Source: Candidatus Altimarinota bacterium | GTDB lineage: Bacteria; Patescibacteriota; Gracilibacteria; JAUYGZ01 | DNA: 64,000 nucleotides | NCBI GenBank assembly: GCA_029233985.1 | Contig: JARGOK010000001.1 | Coordinates: 258,472 to 322,471, forward strand | Direction of reading: 5' to 3' | Shown here: positions 20,815-51,533 of the stretch, piece by piece | Position numbering within the stretch: the stretch's first letter is position 1 | Layout of the letters: the number at the start of each line of letters is the position of its first letter | The notes under the pieces: model-generated | The model's database searches: none | Told to the model about the DNA's origin: nothing | The model's input: the letters and a program-made list of their open reading frames with translations, nothing else | Position numbers and translations under genes: made by a program

Positions 20815-20819
20815 TTTTT

Positions 20820-23290: not shown

Positions 23291-23372
23291 GAGGTAAGGG
23301 TAGGATATGAAAGATATTGAGAGAGCAACTAATGGCTCACTTTTTAAAGGAGTCGAGGGTTGAGCCAGGATT

Positions 23373-23723: not shown

Positions 23724-23766
23724 AGGATAAATCTAAAATGGCTAAAGTGCGCTTATTATAGCGCAA

Positions 23767-24585: not shown

Positions 24586-24621
24586 AAAAGAGATAAGGCA
24601 TCTTCATTAGTATCATATTTC

Positions 24622-28697: not shown

Positions 28698-31397
28698 ATG
28701 AAAAATTTTTCAGGTCTTACTTCTCATCAAGTTCGATCGCAACGTGCCAAGTTTGGCCGAAATATTCTTGACGTCAGCTCCGGTCAAAGTCTGCTAAAAA
28801 AAATTACCAGCCAGTTTACTGACTTGATGGTCATTATATTGATTGTGTCCGCATTTATTGCTTTGCTTTCAGGGTACTATCAAGGAGAAGAAAGTAGTAT
28901 TGTAGATGGATATGTGATCCTTGGGGTCGTGTTTTTAAATGCTGGGATTGGTTTTTTTCAAGAGTATCGGACAGAGAAAGCCCTTCAAGCTCTGAAAAAA
29001 CTTGTCGCTCCTCATGCCATTGTCTTGCGTGATGGAAAAAAAGAGCTGATTGATTCTGCTGACTTGGTTCCTGATGATATTGTGGTTTTGCAAGCTGGCG
29101 ATAAAATTGTGGCTGATGGGATTTTATTGGAGTCTGATGAACTGAAAGTGGAAGAATCAGCACTTACTGGTGAATCTGTACCTGTTCATAAGAAGGAAAA
29201 AAGTGAAGTGTTTATGGGGACTACTGCTGTGTCTGGTGGAGCTCTTCTCCATGTACAAGCTACTGGAATGAAAACAGCATTTGGTCGTATTGCTCATCTG
29301 ACGACTTCGACTAAAAAAGACCTCTCCCCTCTTCAAAAAGAAATGATCCATGTTGGGGTCTTTGTGACCAAGGTGACTTTGGTGATTTCGACTCTCTTGA
29401 TTGTGTTTGGGGTTTTTGTAGAAGGTCGTGGGTTTTTGGATTCTCTGCTTTTTGCAGTGTCAGTGGCAGTAGCGGCAGTCCCCGAAGGACTCCCTACTAC
29501 TCTGACTGTTGCACTGGCTCTGGGAGTACAAAAAATGGTGAAAAAAAAGGCTATGGTAAAGCAGCTTTCTTCTATTGAAACCTTAGGATCGACGACCGTC
29601 ATTTGCAGTGACAAGACTGGAACTCTTACTCAAAACCAAATGACCGTTCGACAGCTCCTGATAGGGCTCGATGATGAGTGTGATGTCACCGGTACGGGGT
29701 ATAGTCCGGAAAAAGGACATATCGACACCTCGCAATTGCAAGTAGCTGATTATCAGAACCTTTCTCTGATGAAAAGTATTTCGATTCATTGCACTGAAGC
29801 GAGCCTCAATAAATCCGGAAATCGATATGAGATACTTGGTGATCCTACAGAAGGCGCCCTTTTGACTCTTGCTGGAAAAAAAGTCATTAAAGAGAAAAAA
29901 AGAGATAAACTCCTGAAAGGAGAAATTTTAAAAAAAATTCCTTTTGATAGTGAACGAAAACTGATGAGTATCGCTGTGGATAATAATGGAAAAAATGAAC
30001 TGTGGGTAAAAGGATCTCCAGATGAAATCGTTCAGCGCTCTACACATGTATTGAGTCAAGGAAAACGCAAGAAACTGACCACAGCACAAAAAATGGCTTT
30101 GATAAAAAAATATGAAAAGATGGCAAGTCGAGCACTGAGAGGTATCGCATTTGCTACTCGAAGTCTCCCAAAAAAACAGAGCATGACGGTCTCTTCTCTT
30201 CAAGAACAAGAATCGAACCTTACTTTTATAGGAATTGCAGGAATGATCGATCCTCCAAGACAAGCCGTTCCAAAAGCTGTTCAGCAGTGCCACAAGGCTG
30301 GTGTACGCACGCTTATCATTACGGGAGACAATGGACTGACAGCAAAAGCCATTGCAGATGAAATTGGTCTTGGAACATACAAAACTCGTATTGTTCTCGG
30401 AACTGAACTCGATAAGATGAATGATCGAAAACTCGATCTGCTCTTGAAATGGAAGCGTCCAGTACCATTTACCCAAGACGATCTCAAATCTGCATCTCTT
30501 ATTTTTTCACGTGTAAGCCCAGAGCATAAGCGCCGTATAGTCGATCGTCTCAAGAAAAAAGGTGAAGTGGTCGCTGTAACAGGAGATGGTGTTAATGATG
30601 CTCCTGCCTTGAAACGTGCAGACCTTGGTATTGCTATGGGTATCTCTGGAACAGAAGTATCGAAAGAAACAGCAAATATCATTCTTTTGAATGATTCCTT
30701 TGCGAGTATCGTAGATGCCATATCAGAAGGACGTCGGATTTATGCAAATATGAGAAAATTTATTTGGTATTTATTTTCCTGCAATGTTGGGGAACTTTTG
30801 GTGGTGTTCTCTTCTGTTCTTTTGCAAATCCCAACCCCTCTTACAGCAACCCTTATTTTAGCGATCAACTTGGGGACAGACATCTTCCCAGCGATTTCTT
30901 TGGGAGTGGATCATGCTCAAGTAGATATTATGCAGAAAAAACCTCGAAATCCTCATTCCCGTATTTTAGAAAAAGACTTTATTTCCCATTTTCTCAGTGT
31001 TGGTCTTTTGATCGGATTTCTTGTGATAAGTCTCTATCTTTGGAAGCTTCAGAGTATGGGGTGGGAGTACGGTATGGTTTTAGGAAAAGACTCTGAAATA
31101 CTCAGAAGTGGGTGGACTATGTCTTTTGCAAGCCTGGTAATCTTTCAGTTGTTCAACAACTCCAATGCTCGTGCTCTAGGGCAGTCTTTGTTTTCTCTTC
31201 GTATACTGTGGCTGCAATGGTTGGCTATTGGTTCATCATTGGTGATTGTCATTTCTATTGTGTATATCCCATGGCTACAAGGCATCCTCAAAACCACTGG
31301 TCTAGCAACAACAGACTGGGTTTTGATTCTCTTCGGCGGTGCTCTTATTCTTGGTTTTGAAGAGGGCCGAAAGTTTATTCTTCGACGGAATCGGTAG
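28698..31397 (+). CDS. Cation-transporting P-type ATPase, Ca2+ (P2A) type
   Basis: 899 residues with the full P-type layout: N-terminal cation ATPase domain, TGES actuator motif near residue 157, PEGLP in membrane helix 4 near 262, phosphorylated Asp 305 in DKTGTLT, and GDGVNDAPAL near 630. Membrane helix 6 carries NLGTDIFPA and a later helix carries QLFNNSNAR, both like SERCA/PMR1-type Ca2+ pumps. It probably exports Ca2+ (Mn2+ is an alternative). Its 3' end overlaps the convergent 1714-aa gene by 23 bp. Confidence 0.94.
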   Translation: MKNFSGLTSHQVRSQRAKFGRNILDVSSGQSLLKKITSQFTDLMVIILIVSAFIALLSGYYQGEESSIVDGYVILGVVFLNAGIGFFQEYRTEKALQALKKLVAPHAIVLRDGKKELIDSADLVPDDIVVLQAGDKIVADGILLESDELKVEESALTGESVPVHKKEKSEVFMGTTAVSGGALLHVQATGMKTAFGRIAHLTTSTKKDLSPLQKEMIHVGVFVTKVTLVISTLLIVFGVFVEGRGFLDSLLFAVSVAVAAVPEGLPTTLTVALALGVQKMVKKKAMVKQLSSIETLGSTTVICSDKTGTLTQNQMTVRQLLIGLDDECDVTGTGYSPEKGHIDTSQLQVADYQNLSLMKSISIHCTEASLNKSGNRYEILGDPTEGALLTLAGKKVIKEKKRDKLLKGEILKKIPFDSERKLMSIAVDNNGKNELWVKGSPDEIVQRSTHVLSQGKRKKLTTAQKMALIKKYEKMASRALRGIAFATRSLPKKQSMTVSSLQEQESNLTFIGIAGMIDPPRQAVPKAVQQCHKAGVRTLIITGDNGLTAKAIADEIGLGTYKTRIVLGTELDKMNDRKLDLLLKWKRPVPFTQDDLKSASLIFSRVSPEHKRRIVDRLKKKGEVVAVTGDGVNDAPALKRADLGIAMGISGTEVSKETANIILLNDSFASIVDAISEGRRIYANMRKFIWYLFSCNVGELLVVFSSVLLQIPTPLTATLILAINLGTDIFPAISLGVDHAQVDIMQKKPRNPHSRILEKDFISHFLSVGLLIGFLVISLYLWKLQSMGWEYGMVLGKDSEILRSGWTMSFASLVIFQLFNNSNARALGQSLFSLRILWLQWLAIGSSLVIVISIVYIPWLQGILKTTGLATTDWVLILFGGALILGFEEGRKFILRRNR

Positions 31398-34300
31398 ATG
31401 ACTGATCACCTTGGGCCTCTTGAAGACGCAAACGAAGGAATTCTTTAGGGTTTTCTTGTGCCCATAAGAGCTCTTTCTTTACCCGCTCTAGTTCAGCTTG
31501 TGTGGTGCTGAGTTCGTAAGTGGCCTCTTCTCGGTCGACTTCACGCTGCCATTGCCCGGCAAGGTTTTTGAAGGTTTTTCCTGCTGATTTTGGGAGTTCA
31601 CCTGATGTTTCATCTAAAAGTGCGATATTGGCTGTTTGTTCTTGAAGGAGGGTTTGTATGATAGCTGTATACATTGCCCTGGTAGTGTTTTGAGCTGCTA
31701 TGATCTCTGATGCCCCCTCTTGTTGAGGGTTTACTTCGAGTGTTGTTTGGATTTTTGAGGTTATTTGACTGAGATTCTGGTCGACTTGTTTGAGTTGCTT
31801 TTCGAGATCTGGAAGAGTGCTTGCTTTATTTACCGAGCGTTGCGTTTTTTTGAGTGCTTCTTGTTGTTGGGCAATCAAGGTTTGAAGTTTTTGTGCACGC
31901 TCTGTGTTTCCATTTTTTTGAGCTGTTTGTTGCTTTTTTTGAAGTTGATCGATGATATCCGATAACGCAGTTACCTTTACTGTATTTTGCTGGACCCGTT
32001 TGAGCTTTGTGATTTGTTGTCTCAAGGTTCTTCTTTGAACCATGAGCTCTTCACTCTCTTGTTTCCAGGTATCGAGGTCGCCTGCCCCATATAAAATTTG
32101 TGCAGACTGAGTATTGAGGTTTGTGATGTAGTTGTAAGCTTCTCCTTGTGTTTCTTGCAGAGTTTCTGTAGATGCTTGACTGGTTTCAAGAGCTTTCTTC
32201 GAACCTTCCAAAAGATCTGTTAAGCGCAATACCTCTAGCTGAAGTCTTTCGAGCTCCTTGCTTTTTTCATCAATTTGATCTTTGATTTCTGCCAACACTC
32301 CCATGAGATCTTCGCTTTCTCCTTCATAGAGCTTTTCCAGTTCATCGCTCTTTTTTTCCAGTTCCTCATATGTTTGGTCATGATCATCACGTTCTTTTTG
32401 AAGTTTATGTTCGACCAATTCACGAGCTGCATCTTTTTCCTCAAGTTCGGCATCTTTTAGCCCAAGAGATTTTTGAATTTCTTTGAGTTTTTTATTTCGT
32501 TTGTCTCGATTTTTGTCTCGTACTTTTCCACCACTTATAAAGGCTACTATTCGTCTTTCTTTATTCTTCAGGTCTTTTTGTGCTTTTTCTAGCTCTAGTT
32601 TGAGCTCTGCTACTTGTTTTTCAAGTACCTCAGAAGCTCCCTTTGAGACACCAGACTGTTCTGCTGCTGCGGTTTGGATTTGCTGAGTAAGCTCTCGTAG
32701 TGTGTGAGTGAGTTCAGTATTCTTATTTCCACTTTCTTGTAGCTCAGACTGAAGTGTTTTGAGCTCTGATTTCACCTGAGCTGCTTCTTGGCGTGATTTT
32801 TTAAGCTCTGATCTCATATCGGATATTTTCTGGTCCATTGAGCTCTGAGCTGAGACAGCCTCGTTTTGAAGAGACTTGATGCTCTCCTCAAGCTCAGATT
32901 TTTCAGACAGAAGAGTGTTCTTCTTTTTTTCTAGTGTTGTGTATTGCTCATTGAGAGTTTTAAACTCTGCTTGCAGTGTTTGTAATTGCTGCTCGGCATT
33001 TTGTTTTTCGATTACTGTTGTGTTTTTTGCTGAATTGAGCTCTTCACCTTGTCTTTGGAGTGTCTCAAGTTCTCCTTGAAGAGTTTGGAGTTGTTGGTGA
33101 ACAGAGGCTTTTTCCGACTCAATAGCCATGTTTTTTTCTTGTAGCTCTTGGTACTGAGTCTGCAAAGTATTGCGTTCCGCCTCAAGCGTTTGGAGACTTT
33201 GCTCTGCACCTGTTTTTTCAGAAAGGAGCGTTGCGCTTTCTGTCTTCAAAGTGTCTATCTGCTCGTTTAAGCTACTTATATTGAGTTGAAGGTTTCGAAT
33301 GCTTTGTTCTTTTTCAGAGTTTTCAGCTTTCAAGGTCTCTACTTGTGTCTTGAGAGATGAAATTTTCTGATTGAATTGTTCTTTTAAAGCGCTGTTTGTC
33401 GCTTGGTCATCGTTTTCGGACTGTTGCTCTAATGCTGTTAGATGAGCTTGCGTAGACTTTAGTTCTTCTTGTAAGGAATTGAGCTGCAGTGTGGACTTTT
33501 CGAGATCTGATTGCGCTTTTTGGAATTTTTGTTTGAGCTCGGTTTTTTCACCTTCTACTTTGAGAAGAGTTTTTTCGTTTTCATCGCATCTCTTTTGAAG
33601 CTCTTCCTTAGATGTTCTGAGCTCTGAGAGCGATGCATTGAGCTGTTCAAACTCTGCAGATTTGCCTTGGGCACGATGAGTTTGTTCTTCTAGCTCTTTT
33701 TTGAGGGTTTCTATCTCTCCTTGGTCAAAAGTAGGACTTCCTGTGAGCACCTCTTGCACACGTTCTTCGGGGCTCTTTGCAAGCTCTGTTTCGTATTGGG
33801 CGAGTCTTTTTTCTAGCTGAATTTTTTCATCTTTGAGTTTTTTTATTTCAGCTTCTAGCAATGCTACTCTGTTTAGATCCCCACTTGCCTCAGCTTCTTT
33901 CTTTTTGCTCACTAGTTGTTGCATTTCAGAAGTCGCCATAGTGATTTGTTCACTTGTGACTTGTTTTCCAATCGTGGAAAGACCTGTCTTACTTTCTAGT
34001 ACAGCATTTTTGAGTCTTTGAATTTCCCCACTATGAGTAATCTCTCCTGTGTTGGCATTCACACGATGAAGCACTTTTCGGACATTTTCCACATGAGGTT
34101 TTACAACGTTTTCTATATACACATCGAGAGACTGGAGTATTTCACGACCTGTATTTTTGTCTTTTCCAATACCGTTTTGCCATTCTGACAGTTTGTTTCT
34201 GATATGGTTTTCATGAGTCGAAGTTTCAGAAAAAAGCTTGGTCCAATCATTTTTTTCGGACTGTGTTATGTTAATTCCTGGCAATCCCTGAAGCTGAAGA

Positions 34301-36519
34301 TTGAGGTCACGATAGCATTCTTGGAGGTAAGTATCGGCATATATGGTTGCCGTATCCATAATGAGTGCTTGGAGTCTCGCGATGGTGTTTTCGTATTTTT
34401 TTTGAGAGTCTTCAAACTTCTCTTTCATTGTTGGATATTTGGTTGCGGCATCGTGGGCATTGAGATGCTGAAGACCAATGTAGTTGTCTATTTGGCTGGA
34501 ATTTTTTTCGGCTTGTAAATAGGTTTTGATGATCCTCTTGATGAACTCATGAGCTCTTTTATCCATTAGCTTCAGTTGCATTTGGACCTCTTGATCTTGT
34601 TGAGTATCGCGAAGTCTTCGAAGAGCATTTGATATGAAGCCCTGCAAAGCCAGAGACTGATCACAGAGTGGTTCGTATTCTTTGAGTGATATCACTGCCT
34701 GCGAAGCGGTAGTGTCTGATACCCAAAAAATATCATTTTTACTTTTCGGTTTTTGCGCACTGTTTTTTGACTCCTTTTGTTGCTGGTGTTTTTCACATAC
34801 TTTTTTATAGTCTGAGATACTCTTGCTGAGCTTTTCCGACATCACTGTCAGATGACTTGCTTTCAGAAGAAGAGACTCATAGGGGTTTTGTTCATTGTGA
34901 CTTTCAAGATATGCAGGATAAAGCGTTTGTTCTAGGCTTTGGATATCTTCACGAAGAGTGTTTAGGGAGGCTACACCTTCTGTTGATCTAGGCTCTACAG
35001 ACTCTTTTAAACGTTCTTTAAAACTGCCTATTACTTTGCCAGATTGCTCTGGGAAAAGGATTTCTAGAGCTTTTATTCTGTTTTCAGTATCATTGAGAAG
35101 TGCTTCTTCAGGATTGCCATTGTTTGGTGATTGCAAGAGACGTAGGTTTTTCATTCTCTGTGTATCATATCGCTCTGTTTGGCCTTTGGTTTTGAAGTAT
35201 TGAATAATGATTGATTTGCTGAGTTTCATAACTTGGTCACCATCCATTCCCATAAATTTAAGTTTCGTTTCTCGTATTTTTGCATCAGTATTTGGACTTG
35301 TATACTTGCAAACTGTATTTGAAAGATTTCGTGTCATAGGCTCCTTTAGATCATCTAACATTTGAACATCTATAGCAGCAAAGGCAAACGCAGATTTAGC
35401 TATGAAAGCACTTTTATCTCCTTTTTTTTCTATCGAAACCATAAATACCTTACTCAATATTTCTCTCAATCTAGTCATTTTTTGACTCTTATTCTGATCT
35501 GTTTCATTTTTTATATATTGAGAAAGCTTTTTAAAAAAACTGTATAGTTTTCTCACTTTTTCTGAGTCTACTTTCTTTAGAACTTCCTCAGGAAATGTTT
35601 TCTGAGGGGTGTTTGCGATCGACTTGATGAGTATTTTTATTTTTCCCATAAGGACCTTTGCAGTTTCGTAATCTCTGTACTCCCTTTGTGAGTCGTTGAT
35701 TGATTTTATTTCAGTTTCTAATTTTTTTTTGGCTTCTTGAATTTTGCTGGGAATGATATTGAGCCCAGGTCCAAAAGTTCTTTGGAGCCGAACATGAACC
35801 TCTCTGACAACTTTCTCCATTTGAGAAGCCTGTTTTCGTGTTACTTTTGCTTGAAGAAAAGGTTTTTCATCTGTTGACTCCACAACTTCCTTTAGAAGAC
35901 CGAGTGGGCTGGTAAGTCTTCCAGAGCTTGTTCTTCTTTGTTCTTCTTTTTTTTGCACACCAAAAATTTCTGATCTTTTCTTGATTAATAGATCGAGGTT
36001 CGCCTTGGTGATGGAGTCATTGGATGATTTATAGCTCTGTGTAAAGGTTTCTATTACCTTATTTATCTGTGCTAGAAGATCTTCTCGTTCTGCTTTAGGG
36101 AGTTGCTCAATGTTTATTCTCTCAAATTTATTTGAGAGTACTAGACTTGGCATAAGGTTTACGCTCGCTTCACTGTCATTGTCTGAAGGAGTAGGAAAAG
36201 ATATTCTTGCGGTAGAGCCGTTTTTCCTTTCGATGAGGATAAGCGTGTTGTCATTTTTTTCTTCCAAAGACTTTATTCTATCACCTGACTGTATGATGTC
36301 TGCGATATCTGGATAAATATCTACAACCAAAGCGAGTACCATAGCTCTCTCTTCATCTGTGATACCTACTCTAGAAAGTCGTTGGCTAATGGCTTTGCTG
36401 GGTTTATTTGTTTTTCGAAGACGACTGAAACCTCTTTTAGTTTTATGAACACCATCATCGATATTCTCGTCGGGTTTATTCACATAACAAAGTCGTTTTG
36501 AGATCAGTTCGTTGGTCAT
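31375..36519 (-). CDS. Giant coiled-coil protein, 1714 aa (cluster gene 7)
   Basis: Last gene of the giant cluster. Residues 1-870 are helical and mixed, with a basic N-terminus (KRGFSRLRKTNKPSKA) and no recognisable domain. From about 870 to 1440 it is an almost unbroken coiled coil of Leu/Glu/Gln/Lys heptads (repeated units such as LQTLQAEFKTLNEQY and LEKQVAELKLELEKAQ), resembling a myosin or SMC tail. A second helical region and an acidic Gln/Ser-rich end follow. There is no Walker motif, so it is not an SMC ATPase. No signal peptide or membrane helix. It starts 53 bp after the AAA+ gene and probably forms long rods. Confidence 0.85.
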   Translation of the reverse strand: MTNELISKRLCYVNKPDENIDDGVHKTKRGFSRLRKTNKPSKAISQRLSRVGITDEERAMVLALVVDIYPDIADIIQSGDRIKSLEEKNDNTLILIERKNGSTARISFPTPSDNDSEASVNLMPSLVLSNKFERINIEQLPKAEREDLLAQINKVIETFTQSYKSSNDSITKANLDLLIKKRSEIFGVQKKEEQRRTSSGRLTSPLGLLKEVVESTDEKPFLQAKVTRKQASQMEKVVREVHVRLQRTFGPGLNIIPSKIQEAKKKLETEIKSINDSQREYRDYETAKVLMGKIKILIKSIANTPQKTFPEEVLKKVDSEKVRKLYSFFKKLSQYIKNETDQNKSQKMTRLREILSKVFMVSIEKKGDKSAFIAKSAFAFAAIDVQMLDDLKEPMTRNLSNTVCKYTSPNTDAKIRETKLKFMGMDGDQVMKLSKSIIIQYFKTKGQTERYDTQRMKNLRLLQSPNNGNPEEALLNDTENRIKALEILFPEQSGKVIGSFKERLKESVEPRSTEGVASLNTLREDIQSLEQTLYPAYLESHNEQNPYESLLLKASHLTVMSEKLSKSISDYKKVCEKHQQQKESKNSAQKPKSKNDIFWVSDTTASQAVISLKEYEPLCDQSLALQGFISNALRRLRDTQQDQEVQMQLKLMDKRAHEFIKRIIKTYLQAEKNSSQIDNYIGLQHLNAHDAATKYPTMKEKFEDSQKKYENTIARLQALIMDTATIYADTYLQECYRDLNLQLQGLPGINITQSEKNDWTKLFSETSTHENHIRNKLSEWQNGIGKDKNTGREILQSLDVYIENVVKPHVENVRKVLHRVNANTGEITHSGEIQRLKNAVLESKTGLSTIGKQVTSEQITMATSEMQQLVSKKKEAEASGDLNRVALLEAEIKKLKDEKIQLEKRLAQYETELAKSPEERVQEVLTGSPTFDQGEIETLKKELEEQTHRAQGKSAEFEQLNASLSELRTSKEELQKRCDENEKTLLKVEGEKTELKQKFQKAQSDLEKSTLQLNSLQEELKSTQAHLTALEQQSENDDQATNSALKEQFNQKISSLKTQVETLKAENSEKEQSIRNLQLNISSLNEQIDTLKTESATLLSEKTGAEQSLQTLEAERNTLQTQYQELQEKNMAIESEKASVHQQLQTLQGELETLQRQGEELNSAKNTTVIEKQNAEQQLQTLQAEFKTLNEQYTTLEKKKNTLLSEKSELEESIKSLQNEAVSAQSSMDQKISDMRSELKKSRQEAAQVKSELKTLQSELQESGNKNTELTHTLRELTQQIQTAAAEQSGVSKGASEVLEKQVAELKLELEKAQKDLKNKERRIVAFISGGKVRDKNRDKRNKKLKEIQKSLGLKDAELEEKDAARELVEHKLQKERDDHDQTYEELEKKSDELEKLYEGESEDLMGVLAEIKDQIDEKSKELERLQLEVLRLTDLLEGSKKALETSQASTETLQETQGEAYNYITNLNTQSAQILYGAGDLDTWKQESEELMVQRRTLRQQITKLKRVQQNTVKVTALSDIIDQLQKKQQTAQKNGNTERAQKLQTLIAQQQEALKKTQRSVNKASTLPDLEKQLKQVDQNLSQITSKIQTTLEVNPQQEGASEIIAAQNTTRAMYTAIIQTLLQEQTANIALLDETSGELPKSAGKTFKNLAGQWQREVDREEATYELSTTQAELERVKKELLWAQENPKEFLRLRLQEAQGDQSSTDSVEE

Positions 36520-36572
36520 TGGGAAAGATTTGAAGTTGTAGGGTAATGAGCTGAAGTTGAGGGAAGAACGGA

Positions 36573-39500
36573 TTATCCAAGATCGTCATCATCGTCGTCG
36601 AAGTTCATGTCTCCTCCTGCGACTTTTTCTGTTTCAAAATCTGGTCGTTCGATATTTCCTCCAGGAAGAACAATAGCGGCTTCGGAAATTTTTCCGATAT
36701 AGGCTACCATTTCCGTGAGCTTTTGTGTTTGTGTAGTAATGTGCTGGAGCTGTACTGCTCGTTCTTCTTTTCCAGCGCTTTCTCCGTTTGTCGCCATGCT
36801 GGTCATTTCTTTGAGTGCCGCCAACATTGCTTTTGCTTGTATTGGAGCGGCCTGTTGGATGGTTTGGATGTGTTGTTGGAGGTTTATGAAAATTTTCTCA
36901 ATACTCGTATTGAACTGCACTTGATTGCTTGTATTTTGAGTAGCAGTACCTGCAAAATCTGAAATCTTTTCATTGAGCGTATCCAAGCGGTTGGTGATGA
37001 GTTTGAGAGACGCGACTGTTGGGTTTGGTGCTTCACCGATGATCTTTCGATCGATAGCTTCTTGCTTGGCGTTTTCGAAATCAACTATTCCAAATTCATC
37101 GTGACAACCCGTTATTCGAGCCAGAATGAGAAGGTCTTCGGGGCTACAGTTCTTATTCTTTTTGATCGTTTGGTACATCATCCGACCGACATCTGATGGC
37201 TTATCGAGTTCGTAGTTGATGAGCGGCATGATCCCTTGCAGATCACGAGCTCCTACTGAATGGAGATTGCAGGGAGGTTTTCCAAGTTTGTATGGTGTCT
37301 TACGGTACTCGTAGGTATCCCAGGCTTCCATTTGAATTTGAGCGATTATGCGAGCTGCCATCAGACGGTTATCAATGGTTTTGATCACTTCTTCGAGCTC
37401 CTGAGAATCGTAAAAATCGGTCTTCAATTCATCCTTATCGACCTCAAGTGGTGTCTTCCGTACAGGATCGGTCAGACGTTTATAGGCAATAAGTTTGACA
37501 TCGTCTGGATGGAGGCCCAGATCCGACGATGATTTTTCCAGGTAGGAGATGAACCAGGCAGCTTGATGATCACTACAGAGCTTATCGTCATCGATGGTTT
37601 CAACACGGGTTTCGATAACAGGATCAAGTTCGGCTACTTTATTTCCAATCCAGATCCAGTTGATGGACCCCTTCTTATAGGTATTTATTCCTCGTTCGAA
37701 GATATCGATATCCAGGCTTTTCTCTGGGTTTGGGATATCATCGAGAGTAATATTCAATCGACGACGCGCATCGAGCACCTGGTGAGAGGTATTGAAGAGG
37801 TTGAACATAAATGGAGCCTCATCGATGACGACAAAATCACCGTCTCCAAAGCCGAGAAGACCTGCCGAGAGCTGGGTAAGGATTTCTTTTTCGGCAGCCG
37901 TTTCTGCATTTTGAGGATCGAGACTTCTGGCATTTTTGGCATTGTTTCCCTGGACCATCATCATGGTGTTTTTGGAATACTTCGTGAGTGCTAAGAGAAG
38001 TGTCGTCTTTCCAGAACCAGGCGCTCCACAAAAGACGACCACATTTCTATCAGGCGAAAGCTTGATCATTTCGATACGATCATTGAGCTCTTTGAGGCGG
38101 ATAAAATCGTGAATAGTGGGACGATAGGTCTCAACAAGGGTGTTTTGCTTGTTTAAATTTCCGATCATGAAACGGTTTTTGATCCTCTCTTCATTGCGTT
38201 GGATGTACTGGTGCATGTCCATGAGAGGTTCTCCGAAGTCTTCTTCAAACTCCTGTGCACGAGTGAATAATTCTTTACGAGAAATCGTGTACTCTATCCG
38301 ATTGAGAACGGGGTGCTGGGACTTGAGACCTGGAACTTTTTTTTCATGGTCATTTTCTTCTTGCAAGAAACTCTCAAGATCTGATGGAATCTTCTCTGGC
38401 CAAAGTGCCACTACAAGACAGATGATGTCATGAAGATGATCATTATTGAGCTCCATACTGTAGGTGGCGATGATTCCCTTTCCTTTTCCAGTGAGCATTT
38501 TCTCTAGATCACCGTACACTTCTTGGACTTGAGTGCTGCTGGGAGACATTTTTTTATCTCGTTGTAGTTTTACAAGACGACTCATTTTTCTCTTCAGTCG
38601 TTTGCTTCCCTTTTCTGAGAGCAGTCGCTTTATAAGAAAATAGGCAGCCATTTCTTCTCGAGCTATCTTTGGAGTGATGGCTTCCCTTCCTTCTCTCGTG
38701 AGCTCATCACTCATGCCTTCCTTAGCCGGTGACTCCCAGTAAAACACACGTGCGGCATCAAGTGCATCAGTGGTATTGCTGATGTAAGGCATTTCTTTTG
38801 AAAAAGCTGTTCCAAGGACACTCATCTGTAGACTGGGAAGCCCTGAAGCTGTCCAGACAGGCTTTGTTTTGATTTTAATATCACCAGAATACTCTCTCCC
38901 CGACAGCTTAATCTCCAGATCCCCCATGCTCGGTTCGATGGATTTGAAAAACTCAGGAAATTTCATCACGTAGTATCCCGGTTTGTAGTGAAATCCTTTT
39001 TCGATCTCAACGTCTCGTATGGCTTGATTACGAATATAGCGAAGTTGATCCCAGAATTCATCCATTTTTTGTGTTTTCTCGGGATAATCAGATTGGAATT
39101 TTTCAAGAGCCTTAAAAAGGCGAAGCATACTGTCTGAGCACTCAGACTCTGGAATCCGTGATACTCGATTTTGTTTGTTGAGGTCGAACCCCCGGAAGAG
39201 AGCTGTCACTCTTCGCATAGCTTGCATGGAAAGCTGGTCTGCGGTGGCTCCTTCCCGTTTTTCGTACTGGACAGCAACTGCTGCTTCTTTTCCAAAGGCT
39301 TTGATATCGGTAAACAGTTGTTTTTCTCGTGTTCTGGCTCGCTCAGTCTTCATTTCTCCTGCGATTTCCTTGGCCCGTTGGACTGAGCCTTCGAGCTGGT
39401 CTGATATACGGGTCAGCTGCTCGGAGAAGAGCCGGGAGTCCTGGCGGTATTGATTGAGTTCGGTGAGTTCTTTTTGAATATCTCGTGCTGCTCTCTCGAT

Positions 39501-41684: not shown

Positions 41685-41717
41685 ATTTGCTACCCTTTCA
41701 AAAAATGTTCTTCAAGA

Positions 41718-44105
41718 TTATTGGGAGATTTCAAATACCTTTGCGGTATCAAACATCTCTGAGGCGTGCTTTGGAGAATAAGTCTGGGTTCCAGCATTAC
41801 TCACGACCACCTCTTCTTTATTCTTTGTTCCATTGTCACCATTCGCGATGCTATATCTGACCCCATGAGGCTTTACTGAAATATCTTCATCCTTCTTTGC
41901 CTCGAGCTCGAGGTATGTGAGTGCTACGGAGTCTCGAACAGATTTTGCACGCTCTTCAGCTTCCCCAATAAACTCTTTGAGGTCTGCTTGTTGGAGCAGG
42001 TTGTTGAAGGCAGCTTGGCCAAGTTTTTCTGCAAGGGATGAGAGGTCTTCGATGATACTTTCGGTTGTTTGGATCTCAGCATTAATTTTTTTAATTTTCT
42101 TGAAGTTTTTGTGCTTACCTGATTCCTTTTCTTTGGTAATACTGTCGTATTTTTTGTTGTTTTCTGCTATTTGTTCTTCAATCGCTTCTATTTTTTGTTC
42201 GTTGAGAATGTCCTCCGTACTCAATTGTGCCAATTCCTCGATCAATCGTTCATTTTCTTGGTCGATCATCTCGAGTTCTTTATCAATGGCTTCTTTCAGT
42301 GCCTTAATTTCAGCTTTTTTTCCTTCGATTTTTGTTTCGGTCTGGACAACGACCCCTTTGAGCTTGATATGATGGGCTTTATAGCGTTCGAATTCGTTTT
42401 GAAGTCGTTCCAGCTGTTGAGACATTCCAGAAATACCTGAATTGAGTCCTCGGTCAGCTTCTTTTCGCTTGTTGTTGGCACTAATTCTCTCGGTAATATA
42501 TCGGGAGATGACCGGACGAAGGACACGATTTCCTGCGTGGTGTTCTGGAGTCCCAAACTGAGCGGGGTTTGCGATATCCTGTTGGACTTTTTGGGTGAGT
42601 TGTTCCCATCGTTTGTCGTTTTCCTTTGTTTTCTTTCCTTCTTCTGGCAACACATCCTTTCGGACCTCACTGAGCCCCTCCTTACTGACCTGACTCTTGA
42701 GGGCACCAGCTAGCTGATCGGCAGAAGCTTTTTGGAGCTGAAGCTCTTTTATTTTTCCTTGAATATGCTTGAGGATTTTGAGCAGCTCTACTCGTTCGAT
42801 CCCATTGAGGTTACTCTCCAGAAAGAGTTCTTGGAGTTTTCGAATGCGTTTTTTCTCATCACCAATGAGTTGGTTTGAGAGTGCTGAAATCTTATTGACA
42901 GTAGACTGAATAGTCACCAGTACTGCAGCGGTCTGCATATGTCCTATGGAAGTGGCTTCGAGTTCATCGAGATTGATGTGGCTTGTAAATGGAGCTTTTT
43001 GGGCTTCTTCCTTGAGGCTTTCGTAGACTTTTTGGAGATCTTTCTCTTGTGTCTCGAGTTGGTTTCGATCTGCCTCATTAGACTTAGGATTAAGAATGTT
43101 TTGAGTATTTTCTAGGATATTTCGAGCCTCCGCGATGAGCTTGTGGTTGTTGAGAAACCCTTTCATGGTGGCTAACGCTGTTTCGTTTGGATCCTCCTGG
43201 AGTCTATTGGCATCGATTTTCTTTTTTTTGGCTGTACTGACTGCAAGTGGATTGGCATTCTTGTAGTGTGCTGTGAGACTTTTATCGAAGGACTCAGAAG
43301 AGGATCCCTGCTTTGTCTTGTCCATGCTGACATACTTATCAGTCGCGTCTTCCACAGTACTGACGAGGGTTTTGAGATCGCTCACGAGTTCTACCATTCG
43401 CGTCTTGTCTTCATTTGTCATTTCTCCTAAATCTTCTCCATTTGCTGAAGCGTCGCTACCAGACAAGTCGGATTGTTCTTGTCGGAGCTGGGCTTCTTGC
43501 GATGCGATCTCTTTCATCATTTCATCCTCCATGATCTCTTTTGTTGTGATCTTAGAGTTTTCATCCTTCAGTTCTTTGCTTCTTTCTTTTTTTTGATTGC
43601 TCAATTGCTGGAGCTCACTTTCGATCTCTTCAACTCTTTTTGAATTGGCAGTAGAGACCTTGGAAGACTGATTTTTCTTGAGGAGTCTCTCGAGCTCTGT
43701 CCCATCACCCAATTTCTTTTTCATTGAGGAGATCGTCTCAAGGGCGTGCTTAATCTTCATAAGATCTGGCCCAAGCTCAGCGTTCTCATCCTTATTGACC
43801 TTTTCCCGTAGTGTCTTGAGGCTTTGTGCTCCTTCTTTAAGGGCTGTGCAGAGCTGCTGAACAGCCTTCTTGTCCTCATCGGAGAGGGTTTTGTCTGCTG
43901 TTACTACTGCCTCCATGCTTGCTGCGAGCTGTTCTTCTTTGGAAACACTGGTGTCGATTTTGTTGGCGATACGGATGTCTTCGTCTACTGCTCCATAGAT
44001 TTGTTGAATTTGTGATTCGAGCATATCGAAATAGATCTGGGCGTTTATACTTGGAGCTTCTTCTTGTTTGGTTTCTGCTGTAGGGGCTGAGGTGGGTTTA
44101 GACAT
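41718..44105 (-). CDS. Coiled-coil protein, 795 aa (cluster gene 5)
   Basis: Unrecognised, highly charged and predominantly helical. A Pro/Thr/Gln-rich N-terminus leads into several coiled-coil blocks, clearest at about 145-215 (RVEEIESELQQLSNQKKER) and 555-690 (LERLQNEFERYKAHHIKLK and IDQENERLIEELAQLS). The C-terminus ends KVFEISQ, which loosely resembles the end of the 598-aa protein (KVFDTQ). It is 33 bp upstream of the AAA+ gene and has no Cys-rich or catalytic motif. Likely a structural partner of its neighbours. Confidence 0.82.
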   Translation of the reverse strand: MSKPTSAPTAETKQEEAPSINAQIYFDMLESQIQQIYGAVDEDIRIANKIDTSVSKEEQLAASMEAVVTADKTLSDEDKKAVQQLCTALKEGAQSLKTLREKVNKDENAELGPDLMKIKHALETISSMKKKLGDGTELERLLKKNQSSKVSTANSKRVEEIESELQQLSNQKKERSKELKDENSKITTKEIMEDEMMKEIASQEAQLRQEQSDLSGSDASANGEDLGEMTNEDKTRMVELVSDLKTLVSTVEDATDKYVSMDKTKQGSSSESFDKSLTAHYKNANPLAVSTAKKKKIDANRLQEDPNETALATMKGFLNNHKLIAEARNILENTQNILNPKSNEADRNQLETQEKDLQKVYESLKEEAQKAPFTSHINLDELEATSIGHMQTAAVLVTIQSTVNKISALSNQLIGDEKKRIRKLQELFLESNLNGIERVELLKILKHIQGKIKELQLQKASADQLAGALKSQVSKEGLSEVRKDVLPEEGKKTKENDKRWEQLTQKVQQDIANPAQFGTPEHHAGNRVLRPVISRYITERISANNKRKEADRGLNSGISGMSQQLERLQNEFERYKAHHIKLKGVVVQTETKIEGKKAEIKALKEAIDKELEMIDQENERLIEELAQLSTEDILNEQKIEAIEEQIAENNKKYDSITKEKESGKHKNFKKIKKINAEIQTTESIIEDLSSLAEKLGQAAFNNLLQQADLKEFIGEAEERAKSVRDSVALTYLELEAKKDEDISVKPHGVRYSIANGDNGTKNKEEVVVSNAGTQTYSPKHASEMFDTAKVFEISQ

Positions 44106-44179
44106 GATGATAAGATGAAAAGGTAAGACGAATTAAGTTGGGACCACATTATAGGTCGGTAATTTCCAGTGTCAAAAGG

Positions 44180-45976
44180 TTATTGGGTATCGAACACTTT
44201 TTTTATTTGTAAGGTTTCTGTACAAAGGAACTGGGTATCCTGAGACTGTGTATGGAGCTGAAAGACAAAGGCGTTTATTCTGATGAGCGCATTGATATTA
44301 TCGGTCTGATCATTTTGATCTCCACCACCGATATCTTCTGGAAGCCGTGAGCGAATACTCAATTGGCTAATACTGTTGGAAAGGGTGTCTCTGGTGTACT
44401 CGATATAGTCCTTCATATCTCCTGAATGTGCTCCATTGTTGCTGAGGTAGAGATTTGCGAGTCCTGATATAGACTTATAAAGGAGATTGAGTTGGACGAG
44501 TACTTCTGTCGATGGTTTGGACTGGGAGAGAGGAAAGTCGTTTATGGTCCATTTTCTATGAGCGCTTCTGAGGAGGCGAAGCTTAGCATCATTAAGAGTA
44601 GAGATCTTGCCTTCAAAGTCTTCCGTTTCGACTATCACCACCTGAGCATTGTCGACATAAATTGGAGACTGTTCTCCAAAGGGGTTTTCTATTCCGAGTT
44701 CATTTTTGAATCGATTATGAAGTTCCTCGAGTCTGCTGAGGGTTTGCTTGCGGGCGAAAGAGATCTCTACGAAGGCACTTGATTCTATACCATGCTCACC
44801 TTTTCGTCCCCATGGAATGTGGGTCTTTAAGAATTCTGAAAGAATTGCAAATAGTTTTTGTGCTGTTCTCCAGTTGTTTTCTGAGGCGATGCTTTCGAAC
44901 AGAGACAAGTCGTTGCCCTTATGCGCTCTGACATACGACGGGAGAGTGACGTCGTTTTTTGAGATGAGACGGTGAATATCCTGAAGAAATAGGACCCCAC
45001 AGTCGCCCTCTTTTCCGGACAAGTCATTTGCATCACGATTAAACTTTAGGATTTTCACGGCATCTTTTGGATGGATATGTCCATCAAACACCTCGTAATG
45101 CTCATACAACTCATCGACGAGGGCCGAAAATTCATCGAGGTCATCATCTCCAAACAAGTTGGTAAAGCCCTCGGGATCTTTTGAGGTGTATTCGTCGCAC
45201 ATGAGATGGAAAGGCTGGTCGAGCTTGAGAATATTTTCCTGGATAAAGTTCAGAAACCAAACGATGTCCTCCATGCTCACCCCATCTTTCTTATAAAAAT
45301 GCTCTATTATCGTCAGCGTGCGGATCCTCCGGTCTGTGATAGCATCGATGTTTGGTTCATCTACTATTTTTGTTGCTGATTCACTTCTCGAGATCTGAGA
45401 CCCAATAATCGGTGTACTTATAGACCCCCTCTCATCTTGACGCAATATGCTTCCGGTTTGCGTGGGTAAGTTTTCAGCTCTTTGGGTTCGACCAATGCTT
45501 CCAACTTTCCTCACTGACAGACTGGAGCTCTGTTGAATTGGTTTAGTACCCGATTTATTAATTTTTTCCTCTGACTGAGTGCTTCGAAGAGCTTCAGTAA
45601 GATCCTGAAGAGCATTTGCGTCGAGATTTTCTCTTTGAGGTAGATTAATACCAGGAACAAGGGATTTAATAAGAGAATGAGACGCACCACCTAGTGCTCC
45701 AGATGATAGGAGTTGAGTGAGGAGGTCTACTTTTGCATTCAAGGCGATGATATCTGGGTTCTTTGATGAAGCTGAGGCCGTTTGATTTTCTCTTTCTAAA
45801 ATGCTCTTTATCTGTAGTAAAGTGTCTTCTTTTCTTCTTTCTTGGTGTTTCTCAAGTTCTTGCTTAAGCCCAGAGATTCCTTTCGATGTTTCCTCTGACA
45901 CCTTTTTTAATTCTTCTATTTGAGCCGAAAGCTTCACTTCTCTCTTACCGGTGTTGTTGATCTTTTCTGAACTCAT
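44180..45976 (-). CDS. Coiled-coil plus globular domain protein, 598 aa (cluster gene 4)
   Basis: Residues 1-60 are a short coiled coil (LSAQIEELKKVSEETSKG). Residues about 80-205 are a Ser/Gln-rich linker. Residues 215-598 look like a folded, mainly helical domain with aromatic residues (IIEHFYKKDGVSMEDIVWFL, FLKTHIPWGRKGEHG). No known family is recognised. A possible TATAAA -10 lies at 46000-46005, with a poor -35. It is the most globular of the non-ATPase members and so a good candidate for partner binding. Confidence 0.82.
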   Translation of the reverse strand: MSSEKINNTGKREVKLSAQIEELKKVSEETSKGISGLKQELEKHQERRKEDTLLQIKSILERENQTASASSKNPDIIALNAKVDLLTQLLSSGALGGASHSLIKSLVPGINLPQRENLDANALQDLTEALRSTQSEEKINKSGTKPIQQSSSLSVRKVGSIGRTQRAENLPTQTGSILRQDERGSISTPIIGSQISRSESATKIVDEPNIDAITDRRIRTLTIIEHFYKKDGVSMEDIVWFLNFIQENILKLDQPFHLMCDEYTSKDPEGFTNLFGDDDLDEFSALVDELYEHYEVFDGHIHPKDAVKILKFNRDANDLSGKEGDCGVLFLQDIHRLISKNDVTLPSYVRAHKGNDLSLFESIASENNWRTAQKLFAILSEFLKTHIPWGRKGEHGIESSAFVEISFARKQTLSRLEELHNRFKNELGIENPFGEQSPIYVDNAQVVIVETEDFEGKISTLNDAKLRLLRSAHRKWTINDFPLSQSKPSTEVLVQLNLLYKSISGLANLYLSNNGAHSGDMKDYIEYTRDTLSNSISQLSIRSRLPEDIGGGDQNDQTDNINALIRINAFVFQLHTQSQDTQFLCTETLQIKKVFDTQ

Positions 45977-46042
45977 ATATACTAAAAATATGTGTAGCCT
46001 TTATACACTAGTTTTTTCTTATGAGAAAGCCGTTTGTTTCTA

Positions 46043-46726
46043 TTATTCAAAGTATTTGACTAATTTCTGAGAAAGATCAATTTTGGTAACTTGTGGTAAA
46101 AATTTCATCTCTGATACTGCTCTAGAAATAAGTTTCTGCTCATGTTCGCATCTCCAACTCTCTTGAATGACTGCAACCAAGCTTTGAAGCATTTTATGAT
46201 TGTGAATCAGTATTGTAGCAAGCTCTGAAATAGTATTTTCGAGTATGGTCAATTCGTCTGTTATTTGGTCTTGGCCTTCATCTTCACCATCTTCTGCGTC
46301 GTTGCCTTGGACTTGAGCCTCAGTTTTCCCACCATCTATATCTGAAAAATCCTGAGTCCTACGTTTTATTTTGTTTTTGTCTTCCTCATCACCCCCCCCT
46401 GTATTGTTTTTCTTCAACTCTCTAGCTTCCTCGGTACACTCATCTATATCCTTTTTCTCATTTACTGTGGCTTCTTCCCAAACTTCCACTTTTTTATCCA
46501 TAAATCTGAAGTCTTCATAAAAACCCTCTCCTCCATCCTTATCTTTTACTGTGTTTATAGCTCCAGATGTAGCTCCTCTTAAGTCATGAACGACATTATA
46601 AATCTTAGCGATCTCATCTTTTGCATCGTTTAGCTCATTCAAATAACCCTGTAAATCAAAACTTTCAATGGCTTCTATTTCAGAGTTATCATACAATTTC
46701 GTTTTTGTTTGTTTAGTGGTTGTCAT
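46043..46726 (-). CDS. Acidic helical protein, 227 aa (cluster gene 3)
   Basis: Small acidic product with a helical N-terminal half (EIEAIESFDLQGYLNELNDA), a Gly/Asp/Glu-rich spacer around residues 105-150, and a C-terminal helical segment (LTILENTISELATILIHNHK and on). Unrecognised. It is the first gene after an internal promoter with a palindrome, so this and the downstream genes may be expressed separately from genes 1 and 2. Confidence 0.75.
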   Translation of the reverse strand: MTTTKQTKTKLYDNSEIEAIESFDLQGYLNELNDAKDEIAKIYNVVHDLRGATSGAINTVKDKDGGEGFYEDFRFMDKKVEVWEEATVNEKKDIDECTEEARELKKNNTGGGDEEDKNKIKRRTQDFSDIDGGKTEAQVQGNDAEDGEDEGQDQITDELTILENTISELATILIHNHKMLQSLVAVIQESWRCEHEQKLISRAVSEMKFLPQVTKIDLSQKLVKYFE

Positions 46727-46733
46727 AAAAATT

Positions 46734-46781
46734 GAAGTATTGTATATACTTCTTTATATCGAATTTTTGGACTGAAATCAA
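46734..46781 (-). promoter_or_regulatory. Internal promoter with downstream palindrome in the giant cluster
   Basis: On the minus strand TTGATT (46781-46776) and TATAAA (46758-46753) are separated by exactly 17 bases. Directly downstream is a perfect inverted repeat, GAAGTAT-N5-ATACTTC (46752-46734), just before the ATG at 46726. The palindrome is placed like a repressor operator and would also form a 5'-leader hairpin. Confidence 0.55.
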
Positions 46782-46787
46782 GTCAAT

Positions 46788-49325
46788 TTATGAAAAACCA
46801 TGCAATCCTTCTTCCAAAAGCCCCAGTCTTACTTCTATAGCATCCAATGTATCCTTTTTGAAATCGTTGCTATCATCTAATCTTTCTGCTTTTAATTTTT
46901 CTTTTTTTATTCTCTCAATTGCCATTTCTACTTCTGATTTACTCATTTGATTAATTTGCTGGGGCGTCAAAGACTGAGCCTGTCCTGGCTGTGAGCTAGG
47001 GTTTGGAGTCGGTGTTTGTTGTTGATTTACACTCCCCCTCAACACAATCTCCCCTGTCTCTTCTCTTATCTCAAACCGACGGAAAATCACCTCAAGAAGA
47101 TTGTGGATCAATTTCAGATCAGTAGTTTTTGTGAGCCTATTAATTGCTCCTATGAATCTCTCATCAGCATACTCTATTTTCAAAGGAACATTAAAGCTAA
47201 ACTGATGTGATTTCATGTTCAATTCTTTCATGGCTTCATTTAGCACAACTGCAGGATTTTTATTGAGAAACTTCTTAATAAGGGTAATTCTTTTATTATC
47301 ATTTTCCCCGTCATACTTTGTTTTTTCATAGACATTTTTGATTCTTAGCCTGAGATTCTGAGTCGTACTGACTTCTTTCTTAATAATCCCACTCAATTGA
47401 AACATAATATCTTTTCTAAACTGGGTATTTCGAGGGCGCTCAGCATTCAAAGACTCGAGGAGCTTATACAGTGTTGGTGTCTTCATCATAATTCTATTTT
47501 TGTTCATATTATTTTTTTGATCCATGTTGCCTATCTCTTTGATTTTTTTGAAACTCTCAGGATCATCCTTTTTTAGAAAATTTAGTATCAATTCAATTTC
47601 AGAATTTTCTTTATCTTTGCTTTGATCCTCATCTTCATCTTCAAGAAAATGAATTTCCTCAAAAATACTTGCACTGTAAGGCATGTCCAAAATTGCTTTC
47701 TGAGAATCAATTTGTCTCTGATCTTCTCGTTTTGCTAATTCAAGAGCTTGATTAAATTTTTCAATTCCGATAGGTAAATCACTCAGACGTTTCACTATTT
47801 CTGAGGTGTCGATAATTTTCCCAGAAACTGTGTCTCTTGTATTTTTCAAGAGCTTGAGCTTATTTGGATGTGAGGCAGAGTAAAGATCCATAAGTGTTGT
47901 TAACCCTGTAATGGCTTCAATAATTTCCTTTGGAACTGGTTGCCCACTATTTTTCAATTGATTCTTTTCTTCTTCATAATACTCCCTGTCTTGTTTTAAT
48001 CTATTATATGTTGCTTCACACTTTGATCTTTGAATTTCTAGTTCTTTTTCTGCGATCAACAAATGCTCATTAAGCTCATCAGGTGTTAGTTCTTCTTCTC
48101 GTTTGTATTTATCACCCAAACCTTTCTTCCCGACCCACCAATGTTTTGCTCTTCCATAAATATTCTTTATGCCAGACCACTGACCCTCAAATGCTTCGAA
48201 TTTTTTGGGTACTAATTCTCTTACATTCACTCTGTAAGACTTCTTCTTTTCATCTTCAATTTCTTCAATCATATTGTCTTCTTCGAGTTTGGCATTGTCT
48301 TTGTCACTTCTGAAGAATGGAAACCTGTGGGAATAATTATTAATGAAATTTTTTGTCTTCACAGCCGCTAATACAGACCCCCATACTGGAAAGGTTTTAA
48401 TAATTGAGTAATTAGCGAGTGTTGTGACAGCTGTTATTGGCCATGTACTCATAAAGACTACTGATGTTGCTAGTGTTACTCCAGACACCAATAAACTGCC
48501 TTTCACAATACTCCTAGTATATTCTTTCCATTTTGAAACTGTTCTTTTAGTAAGCCCGTGTGTTTTTCGGTGTTCTTCAATCTTATCTTGCATCTTTTTT
48601 ATTTTTTGAAGCTTTGCATTTCGTGCAATTTTGAGATGATCTATCTCCTCAATGAGTCTTACGAATTTTCGAGCACTGTTTTTTTCATCGATACTATCTT
48701 TTTGCAAATTTAACGTTTTGAGATATTCGTTGGTTTCTCTAGTATCAATTGATTTTCCATCAACTTTCTTTTCAGCTAGGTTTGCAAGACTCTCAAGAGC
48801 TTCACTAAGGTTTCTTTTTTTTTGTGACCTTTCAGGTAGTATCGATTCTATTTCCCTCGCGGTCGTATCACTCACCGAAGTTTTAAATCTCCTAAGCTCC
48901 ATCTTTCTAATGTAGTTCAGACGCTCTTTTAGAGAGGGATTACTATTGTTCTCAAATTCACCATTTGCTAATTGCTCATTAACATGACAAAGCTCGTCAT
49001 CTTTAAATTCTAAAACATTAGAATACCTTGTTCCGTACATTTTTAATACCTCCTGTATATCAATCTTTCCATCTCGAATGGTTTTGAGATTTTTGATCAA
49101 TTCCTCTCTTGATCCATTCATTCCACCTTCTTCCTTCAGATTAATAGCACTCAGATGTTCGATACGCTTGTGCTGTCCAAGTTTTTCAGGCTGAGAAGGC
49201 TCTTCTGGCAGCGCCAAAACTTTGTCCTCTTCATGAGCTCTTCCGCCTTGAAGCGAATTCTGCGACATAGCTAGATACAACATCCTCTTCGGCAAAAGTC
49301 CGTTCTGGTACCAGAATGGGTTCAT
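46788..49325 (-). CDS. Membrane-anchored coiled-coil protein, 845 aa (cluster gene 2)
   Basis: Unrecognised. Charged helical regions flank a hydrophobic hairpin at about residues 268-315 (GSLLVSGVTLATSVVFMS and SIIKTFPVWGSVLAAV), the only clear membrane segment in the cluster. The C-terminal part has a Pro/Gln-rich linker (about 762-790) and a final short helix pair. I place the start at ATG 49325, one base after the stop of gene 1 (TAAtATG), which implies coupled translation. A longer frame to 49415 would overlap gene 1 by 89 bp. Probably tethers the complex to the inner face of the membrane. Confidence 0.8.
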   Translation of the reverse strand: MNPFWYQNGLLPKRMLYLAMSQNSLQGGRAHEEDKVLALPEEPSQPEKLGQHKRIEHLSAINLKEEGGMNGSREELIKNLKTIRDGKIDIQEVLKMYGTRYSNVLEFKDDELCHVNEQLANGEFENNSNPSLKERLNYIRKMELRRFKTSVSDTTAREIESILPERSQKKRNLSEALESLANLAEKKVDGKSIDTRETNEYLKTLNLQKDSIDEKNSARKFVRLIEEIDHLKIARNAKLQKIKKMQDKIEEHRKTHGLTKRTVSKWKEYTRSIVKGSLLVSGVTLATSVVFMSTWPITAVTTLANYSIIKTFPVWGSVLAAVKTKNFINNYSHRFPFFRSDKDNAKLEEDNMIEEIEDEKKKSYRVNVRELVPKKFEAFEGQWSGIKNIYGRAKHWWVGKKGLGDKYKREEELTPDELNEHLLIAEKELEIQRSKCEATYNRLKQDREYYEEEKNQLKNSGQPVPKEIIEAITGLTTLMDLYSASHPNKLKLLKNTRDTVSGKIIDTSEIVKRLSDLPIGIEKFNQALELAKREDQRQIDSQKAILDMPYSASIFEEIHFLEDEDEDQSKDKENSEIELILNFLKKDDPESFKKIKEIGNMDQKNNMNKNRIMMKTPTLYKLLESLNAERPRNTQFRKDIMFQLSGIIKKEVSTTQNLRLRIKNVYEKTKYDGENDNKRITLIKKFLNKNPAVVLNEAMKELNMKSHQFSFNVPLKIEYADERFIGAINRLTKTTDLKLIHNLLEVIFRRFEIREETGEIVLRGSVNQQQTPTPNPSSQPGQAQSLTPQQINQMSKSEVEMAIERIKKEKLKAERLDDSNDFKKDTLDAIEVRLGLLEEGLHGFS

Positions 49326-49326
49326 A

Positions 49327-49746
49327 TTAGTTGTCTGAAAGTTTTTTTTGAATATCTTGAATTTCGGCGTGTTCTTCCTCGCCTTGGATCTTCTCAGCCT
49401 CTCCATAGGCTGCATTTACCAGCTTCTCAGCATTCTTTTCAAACTGAATGGCGTGCTCGAGTTCCATGTCGAATTTTTGGTCTTCGAGTTCAGCTAACTC
49501 AAGCTCAATTGCGTCTAATTCGGCTTGTTCCTTGGCGATAACTGCTTCGAGGTCTTTTCCTGCTTCTTCCATCTCCACATTGATCTTCTCGAGCTCCGCG
49601 AGCGTGAGAGTCCCTTCGGCCAGCATATAAATATAAGCAATTTTCTTGCCCTCTGGCAGCGCCGAGGATTCAATGGCGCCAGCAAGGGCATTGATATCCA
49701 CAACGGGGGTATTGTCGTCCTTTTTTGTTTTGGTTTTTTGAGCCAT
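49327..49746 (-). CDS. Small acidic coiled-coil protein, 139 aa (cluster gene 1)
   Basis: First gene of the giant cluster. A short basic N-terminus (KTKTKKDD) is followed by a helical region and a strongly acidic coiled coil of about residues 50-130 (LAELEKINVEMEEAGKDLE, ELELAELEDQKFDME). No family recognised. Its stop is one base from the next start. A TATAAT box lies 22 bases upstream of the ATG, so the leader is short. Confidence 0.78.
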   Translation of the reverse strand: MAQKTKTKKDDNTPVVDINALAGAIESSALPEGKKIAYIYMLAEGTLTLAELEKINVEMEEAGKDLEAVIAKEQAELDAIELELAELEDQKFDMELEHAIQFEKNAEKLVNAAYGEAEKIQGEEEHAEIQDIQKKLSDN

Positions 49747-51499: not shown

Positions 51500-51533
51500 G
51501 AATACGAATAAATCTGAATATTCCTGAAGAATT

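Follow-up and report, generated by a model that had tools for sequence, protein, structure and literature searches.

The locus described here may encode a lineage-specific, membrane-tethered intracellular scaffold of coiled-coil proteins. This reading, whose function is deduced from sequence features, is held with a probability of about 0.35. It concerns seven genes, G7 to G1, in a stretch of 64,000 nucleotides (the window) from a Candidatus Altimarinota bacterium. Evidence for it includes the recurrence of the G7–G6 pair in the other genera of the family and a rare N-terminal tag common to G6, in the first probable transcription unit, and G1, in the second.

Gene cluster and transcription units

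Contig C3, which contains the window, has 1,036,255 bases and is one of the five contigs of a 1.66-Mb genome; to the same class belongs genome G012, in which in-frame TGA codons are numerous (three-digit numbers denote genomes, G1 to G7 the cluster proteins). Relatives reached through a neighbouring 193-aa gene include Peregrinibacteria, Gracilibacteria and other Patescibacteria. The first-pass annotation had described seven open reading frames (ORFs) at 31375-49746, all on the minus strand, with about 6,000 residues in total and gaps of 1-74 bp, and the number, sizes, positions and spacing are all borne out (Table 1). It had also been right to allot a single ATPase and a single membrane segment to the set: in a scan of G1 to G4 and G6, the Walker A motif occurs only in G2, and G6 alone among the seven proteins rises above the hydrophobicity threshold. 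An N-terminal hydrophobic signal was absent from all seven in a 19-residue scan. Heptad coverage reaches 0.17-0.39 in G1, G3, G5, G6 and G7, far more than the 0.03-0.14 of shuffled sequences; by this measure G4, with a coverage of 0.00, is not a coiled coil.

The further proposal that the seven genes form one machine keeps part of its ground. An anchor, rods and one AAA+ protein are present, but a single co-transcribed unit is not supported: a perfect sigma-70 promoter lies between G4 and G3. Because of this promoter, two transcription units are probable, G7–G4 and G3–G2–G1, the latter probably with a promoter of its own, as judged from the sequence. Perfect sigma-70 sites number 9 on the 1.04-Mb contig, against 1.2 expected from base composition. 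GC content is uneven over the cluster, with 0.36 in G5/G6 and 0.43-0.45 in G2–G4.

Table 1. Features of the cluster and its borders (positions in the window)
Feature	Position	Strand	Remarks
Left border: 444-aa single-pass membrane protein, outside cluster	50225..51559	-	conserved in 3/3 genera
G7, 139 aa, small acidic helical protein	49327..49746	-	pI 4.35
G6, 845 aa from M31 of 875-aa ORF	46788..49325	-	coiled coil-hydrophobic hairpin-coiled coil
G6 N-terminal tag (FWYQNGLLPKRMLYLA)	49269..49316	-	
G6 hydrophobic hairpin-like stretch	48336..48509	-	~residues 303-360 of 875-aa ORF
G5, 227 aa, acidic helical protein	46043..46726	-	
G4, 598 aa, N-terminal helix and region without recognised fold	44180..45976	-	
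Perfect sigma-70 promoter TTGACA-16-TATAAT (12/12)	44148..44175	-	43 bp upstream of G3
G3, 795 aa, coiled coil	41718..44105	-	
G2, 1703 aa, beta-rich (possibly propeller-like) N-terminus, helical middle, AAA+, acidic C-terminal tail	36573..41684	-	
G2 AAA+ region	37125..38159	-	~residues 1176-1520; Walker A GAPGSGKT
G1, 1714 aa, long coiled coil without ATPase motif	31375..36519	-	
G1 N-terminal tag (ELISKRLCYV)	36481..36510	-	
Right border: convergent P-type ATPase	28698..31397	+	kept beside slot in G001 and G002

Elsewhere, the window carries folate genes at 18358-25575 (a pterin-binding enzyme, a chorismate-binding enzyme and an HPPK/GTP cyclohydrolase fusion) with a homocysteine methyltransferase, and this folate-pathway gene set is unusual for so small a genome. 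Outside the window, C3:815657-855709 is a single ORF whose 13,350-aa product has a hydrophobic segment at the N-terminus, and C3:95609-118329 holds same-strand giants of 1531, 1739, 2602 and 1570 aa. SNF2-type helicase and methyltransferase domains were found in the 1739-aa protein; the 1531-aa (1463 aa scanned), 2602-aa and 1570-aa proteins matched no Pfam family.

The G7–G6 pair and its slot in related genera

G7 is the founder of a small-partner family with members beside G6 in all three genera of the family. The start of G6 is placed at M31 (genomic position 49325) because the motif that follows it, LLPKR.., is common to both G6 copies of genome G001, and this start falls 1 bp after the G7 stop. 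Counterparts of the hydrophobic stretch of G6 were read directly in the relatives.

Genomes G001 and G002 represent the other two genera, and G001 is the sole relative with a complete slot. Its flanks keep a conserved order, with the 444-aa gene on one side and the P-type ATPase on the other, and its interior holds large helical proteins, encoded on both strands, without detectable similarity to G1–G5. Two G7 homologues are found in G001 (1.7e-15 and 1.5e-8 with a two-row G7 profile), each followed directly by a G6-like coil–hairpin–coil protein, one pair per strand. In G002, a 157-aa G7 homologue and a partial G6-like protein come after the 444-aa gene. The order and orientation of G7 and G6 are kept beside this border gene in both genomes, and the second G001 copy is inverted. 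A G6 profile from four sequences matches only this family among 341 class genomes. When the cluster proteins were compared with G001 and G002 proteins by hhalign, only 549 versus 810 of G001 was prominent, besides weak G6-type pairs. Weak G7 matches in other genomes, such as G057 and G270, were discarded, their neighbourhoods being dissimilar on inspection.

The G001 slot also contains a MazF-like protein, recognised by eye (C7:105532-105891), a HEPN protein (C7:126229-126714; Pfam, 1.3e-16), and a 421-aa protein (C7:120434-121699) in which a PD-(D/E)XK-nuclease-like pattern can be made out by eye and Pfam finds nothing.

Recurrence of the gene order had been named beforehand as a test able to refute the single machine, and its outcome is divided: the G7–G6 head recurs, but the rest does not. 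The genes other than this pair do not recur at a detectable level. Neither the 60 relatives nor 380 genomes of the phylum yielded a relative of full-length G2, and for its AAA part 353 class genomes gave just two marginal matches, which contain internal stops. Close-relative scans of viral and genome contigs and tblastn against phages likewise returned nothing for G2, and G4 has no relative among the 60 relatives. Beyond the G7–G6 pair, searches across genomes with single proteins covered G2 and G4; within contig C3, all seven proteins were compared. As G2 and G4 are without accepted relatives, the full seven-gene set has been seen once.

The AAA+ protein and its neighbours

The first-pass annotation had recognised no family in the cluster. 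This holds for six of the seven proteins, for which no family lies above cut-off in Pfam, NCBIfam, PHROGs or PADLOC; the exception is the AAA+ domain of G2, which matches the phage clamp loader PHROG 168 over residues 1176-1433 (E 2.2e-9). Pfam AAA models reach E values of 6e-5 to 0.1 on G2, all below curated cut-offs, and its PDB sequence matches, RFC among them, are weak. Besides Walker A, the region carries a Walker B-like FVVIDEA and a sensor-2-like GARDLQ, both found by eye. By these profile matches and its Walker A/B and sensor motifs, G2 is classed among the AAA+ ATPases. A propeller-like N-terminus is weakly suggested by modelling: for residues ~70-390 the AF2 model has a poor pLDDT of 40, and the best Foldseek matches, mostly beta-propellers, reach a TM of 0.13. 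The models of G4 and of G2 residues 1-420 were made without homologues and were too poor to use; that of G4 shows one fairly confident helix, at the N-terminus.

The heptad coverage of G3 is the highest among the 377 ORFs of at least 300 aa on contig C3. A scan with [AG]x4GK[ST] finds no Walker A motif in G1, and its SMC/Rad50 matches are far below cut-off, all in coiled-coil stretches.

A shared N-terminal tag

G6 and G1 start with similar peptides, GLLPKRMLYLA and ELISKRLCYV, so that the two probable transcription units have a tag in common. Its strict form, KR[LM].[YWF][VLM], was shaped on G6, G1, the G6 proteins of G001 and matches noticed while the contig was scanned. It has exactly five matches in 547 ORFs (245,368 residues), all within the first 55 residues, against 0.25 expected from shuffled N-termini, a count to be read with the tuning of the pattern on its first members, two of the five proteins included. 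The carriers are G1, G6 and proteins of 1166 aa (C3:364533), 494 aa (C3:628326) and 592 aa (C3:631331), all of them long and charged, with no signal peptide detected in the scan. The association of the tag with long charged ORFs has a Fisher p of 6.6e-8, obtained post hoc and with a looser pattern. The strict tag is absent from the 103 ORFs in the rest of the contig, a figure that gauges false positives, not sensitivity, and G6 of G002 is also without it. A degenerate DNA pattern for the tag was abandoned when its reversed control did equally well.

Small partners and further tagged proteins

A small acidic ORF on the same strand adjoins four of the five tagged genes (G7 and ORFs of 120, 151 and 192 aa); no small partner gene adjoins G1. 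One profile family joins G7, the 151-aa protein and a 143-aa protein of genome G192, and the 120- and 192-aa proteins are weakly linked to it. A jackhmmer search from G7 drifted into a protein resembling ribosomal S13, and for this reason the results relied upon come solely from a search started with the 151-aa protein and from a six-row profile, A7. In 85 class genomes, A7 found members at other loci of G001 and G002 and in G177, G243 and G014 (E 4.6e-19 to 1.1e-8). There were also many weaker matches; several of these are a protein of different appearance, which in some cases is encoded next to a GreA-like gene.

By these searches the G7/151-aa family was traced to other families of the class, where similar pairs of small partner and long protein occur. 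Nine long neighbours were inspected, eight reached through A7 and one, in G192, found before. A looser tag, R[LMV].[FYW][VLMFA], lies within the first 60 residues of four of the nine, compared with 16 of 1,123 background ORFs (1.4%); the p-value of 8.5e-6 is indicative only, since these N-termini were already known when the pattern was composed. Relatives of the tagged 494-aa protein are clear in G001 (4e-56) and weaker in G002 and G177.

Several further observations concern these proteins. At a second tagged locus, C3:623335-633109, the 592- and 494-aa proteins occur with the small partners of 192 and 151 aa, and a neighbouring 1360-aa protein contains many hydrophobic stretches. G192 encodes a 1409-aa helical protein (C10:35284-39513) with a hydrophobic stretch at its centre and a long tail of Pro/Thr-rich repeats, an architecture that resembles the 749-aa G6 of G001. 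Small acidic proteins with an 'LTPPEKQYW..LLPSM' or 'ESMDDDERQYWFDIMPSMT' core are encoded at C3:683141-683491 and in several class genomes; in the source genome and in G019 they adjoin a GreA-like gene.

Comparison with known systems

G1 resembles SMC, MukB and Rad50 proteins, including JetC of Wadjet and LmuB of Lamassu, in its long coiled-coil rod and weak profile matches, but it lacks the Walker A motif of their ABC-type ATPase head. An assignment of G1 to SMC or defence proteins was rejected, its matches being driven by the coil only. For cognate Wadjet or Lamassu subunits, PADLOC returned only sub-threshold coil and P-loop matches in the seven proteins and the 444-aa neighbour. The likeness of G2 to clamp loaders (RFC, PHROG 168) is confined to its AAA+ core; in contrast to them, this core sits within a 1703-aa protein whose N-terminus is rich in beta structure. 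A DNA polymerase III delta of the genome's own is encoded at 54386-55366.

The attachment-organelle cytoskeleton of Mycoplasma, with its HMW proteins, is an internal structure of giant coiled-coil and acidic proteins in a reduced bacterium. The cluster may be likened to it by analogy of how the two would work, and no AAA+ protein is known to define the Mycoplasma system. G6 and its small partner gene G7 recall, by analogy of layout, type III translocator–chaperone pairs such as IpaB–IpgC, but there is no profile match. With regard to a bacterial scaffold of the intermediate-filament kind, the cluster sequences show heptads only. No described system with these parts was found in the family libraries or in the open papers searched, and no known kind fits the cluster, whose function and unity are putative.

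Interpretation

In the proposed scaffold, for which we infer membrane topology, tag docking, partner binding, joint action of both units, AAA+ remodelling and a cellular role, G6 would be the anchor, with its hydrophobic hairpin between two coiled-coil arms. G7, made together with G6, would bind and position it. The rods G1 and G3 and the adaptors G4 and G5 would attach to this anchor, and the AAA+ protein G2 may remodel or load the assembly. The N-terminal tag of G6 and G1 could then be a common docking peptide, which other long proteins would use as well, each with a small helical partner of its own.

The strongest rival to the scaffold holds that there is no seven-gene machine: G7–G6 would be a conserved pair in a slot that gathers unrelated, fast-evolving genes for large helical proteins, with G5, G4 and G3–G2–G1 as mere neighbours. 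The promoter between G4 and G3, the different genes on both strands beside two G7–G6 copies in the G001 slot, the GC variation over the cluster and the other giant signal-less proteins elsewhere on contig C3 all favour this view, which is a possible one at well below even odds. The main argument against it is the rare tag common to G1 and G6, which belong to different units; seven genes on one strand with short gaps also speak against mere neighbourhood.

The same tag lends itself to another explanation, in which the tag is a non-Sec signal for export, the proteins that bear it are the cargo and the small acidic helical proteins serve as chaperones; the long proteins would then act at the cell surface or inside a host cell. 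Pairing of chaperone and cargo is known from type III and type VII secretion, and an N-terminal tag with an adjacent small acidic helical partner would match its logic; the coil–hairpin–coil layout of G6 is like that of translocator proteins, as a resemblance only. In a Gracilibacteria genome, 104 proteins have been predicted to be secreted without a signal peptide (PMC6851277), which would also suit export. However, a clamp-loader-type AAA+ protein is no known export ATPase, and this explanation appears doubtful. Still less probable is a conflict or defence island, suggested by rapid turnover at a fixed slot and by the combination of an AAA+ protein, an SMC-like rod and a membrane effector. 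The MazF-like toxin and nuclease-like protein (both by eye) and the HEPN protein in the G001 slot agree with it, as do weak PADLOC matches of G1 to JetC/LmuB. These matches, however, are limited to coiled-coil, P-loop or HTH stretches, G1 is without an ATPase motif, and G7–G6 appears to have been kept vertically in three genera, not exchanged.

A wider system may, tentatively, be proposed at the level of the class. Gracilibacteria-like bacteria would possess long, signal-less helical proteins that bear the tag R-[LM]-x-aromatic-hydrophobic at the N-terminus, together with small helical partners able to recognise this tag, and the seven-gene cluster would be a membrane-anchored, AAA+-driven expansion of this system. 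Should the tag act in docking or sorting, it would open a way into the extensive dark proteome of bacteria that are reduced and mostly uncultured: from a short motif and a small partner gene one could then predict the giant proteins that group. It would also provide a first internal or envelope-linked scaffold to seek by imaging in such cells.
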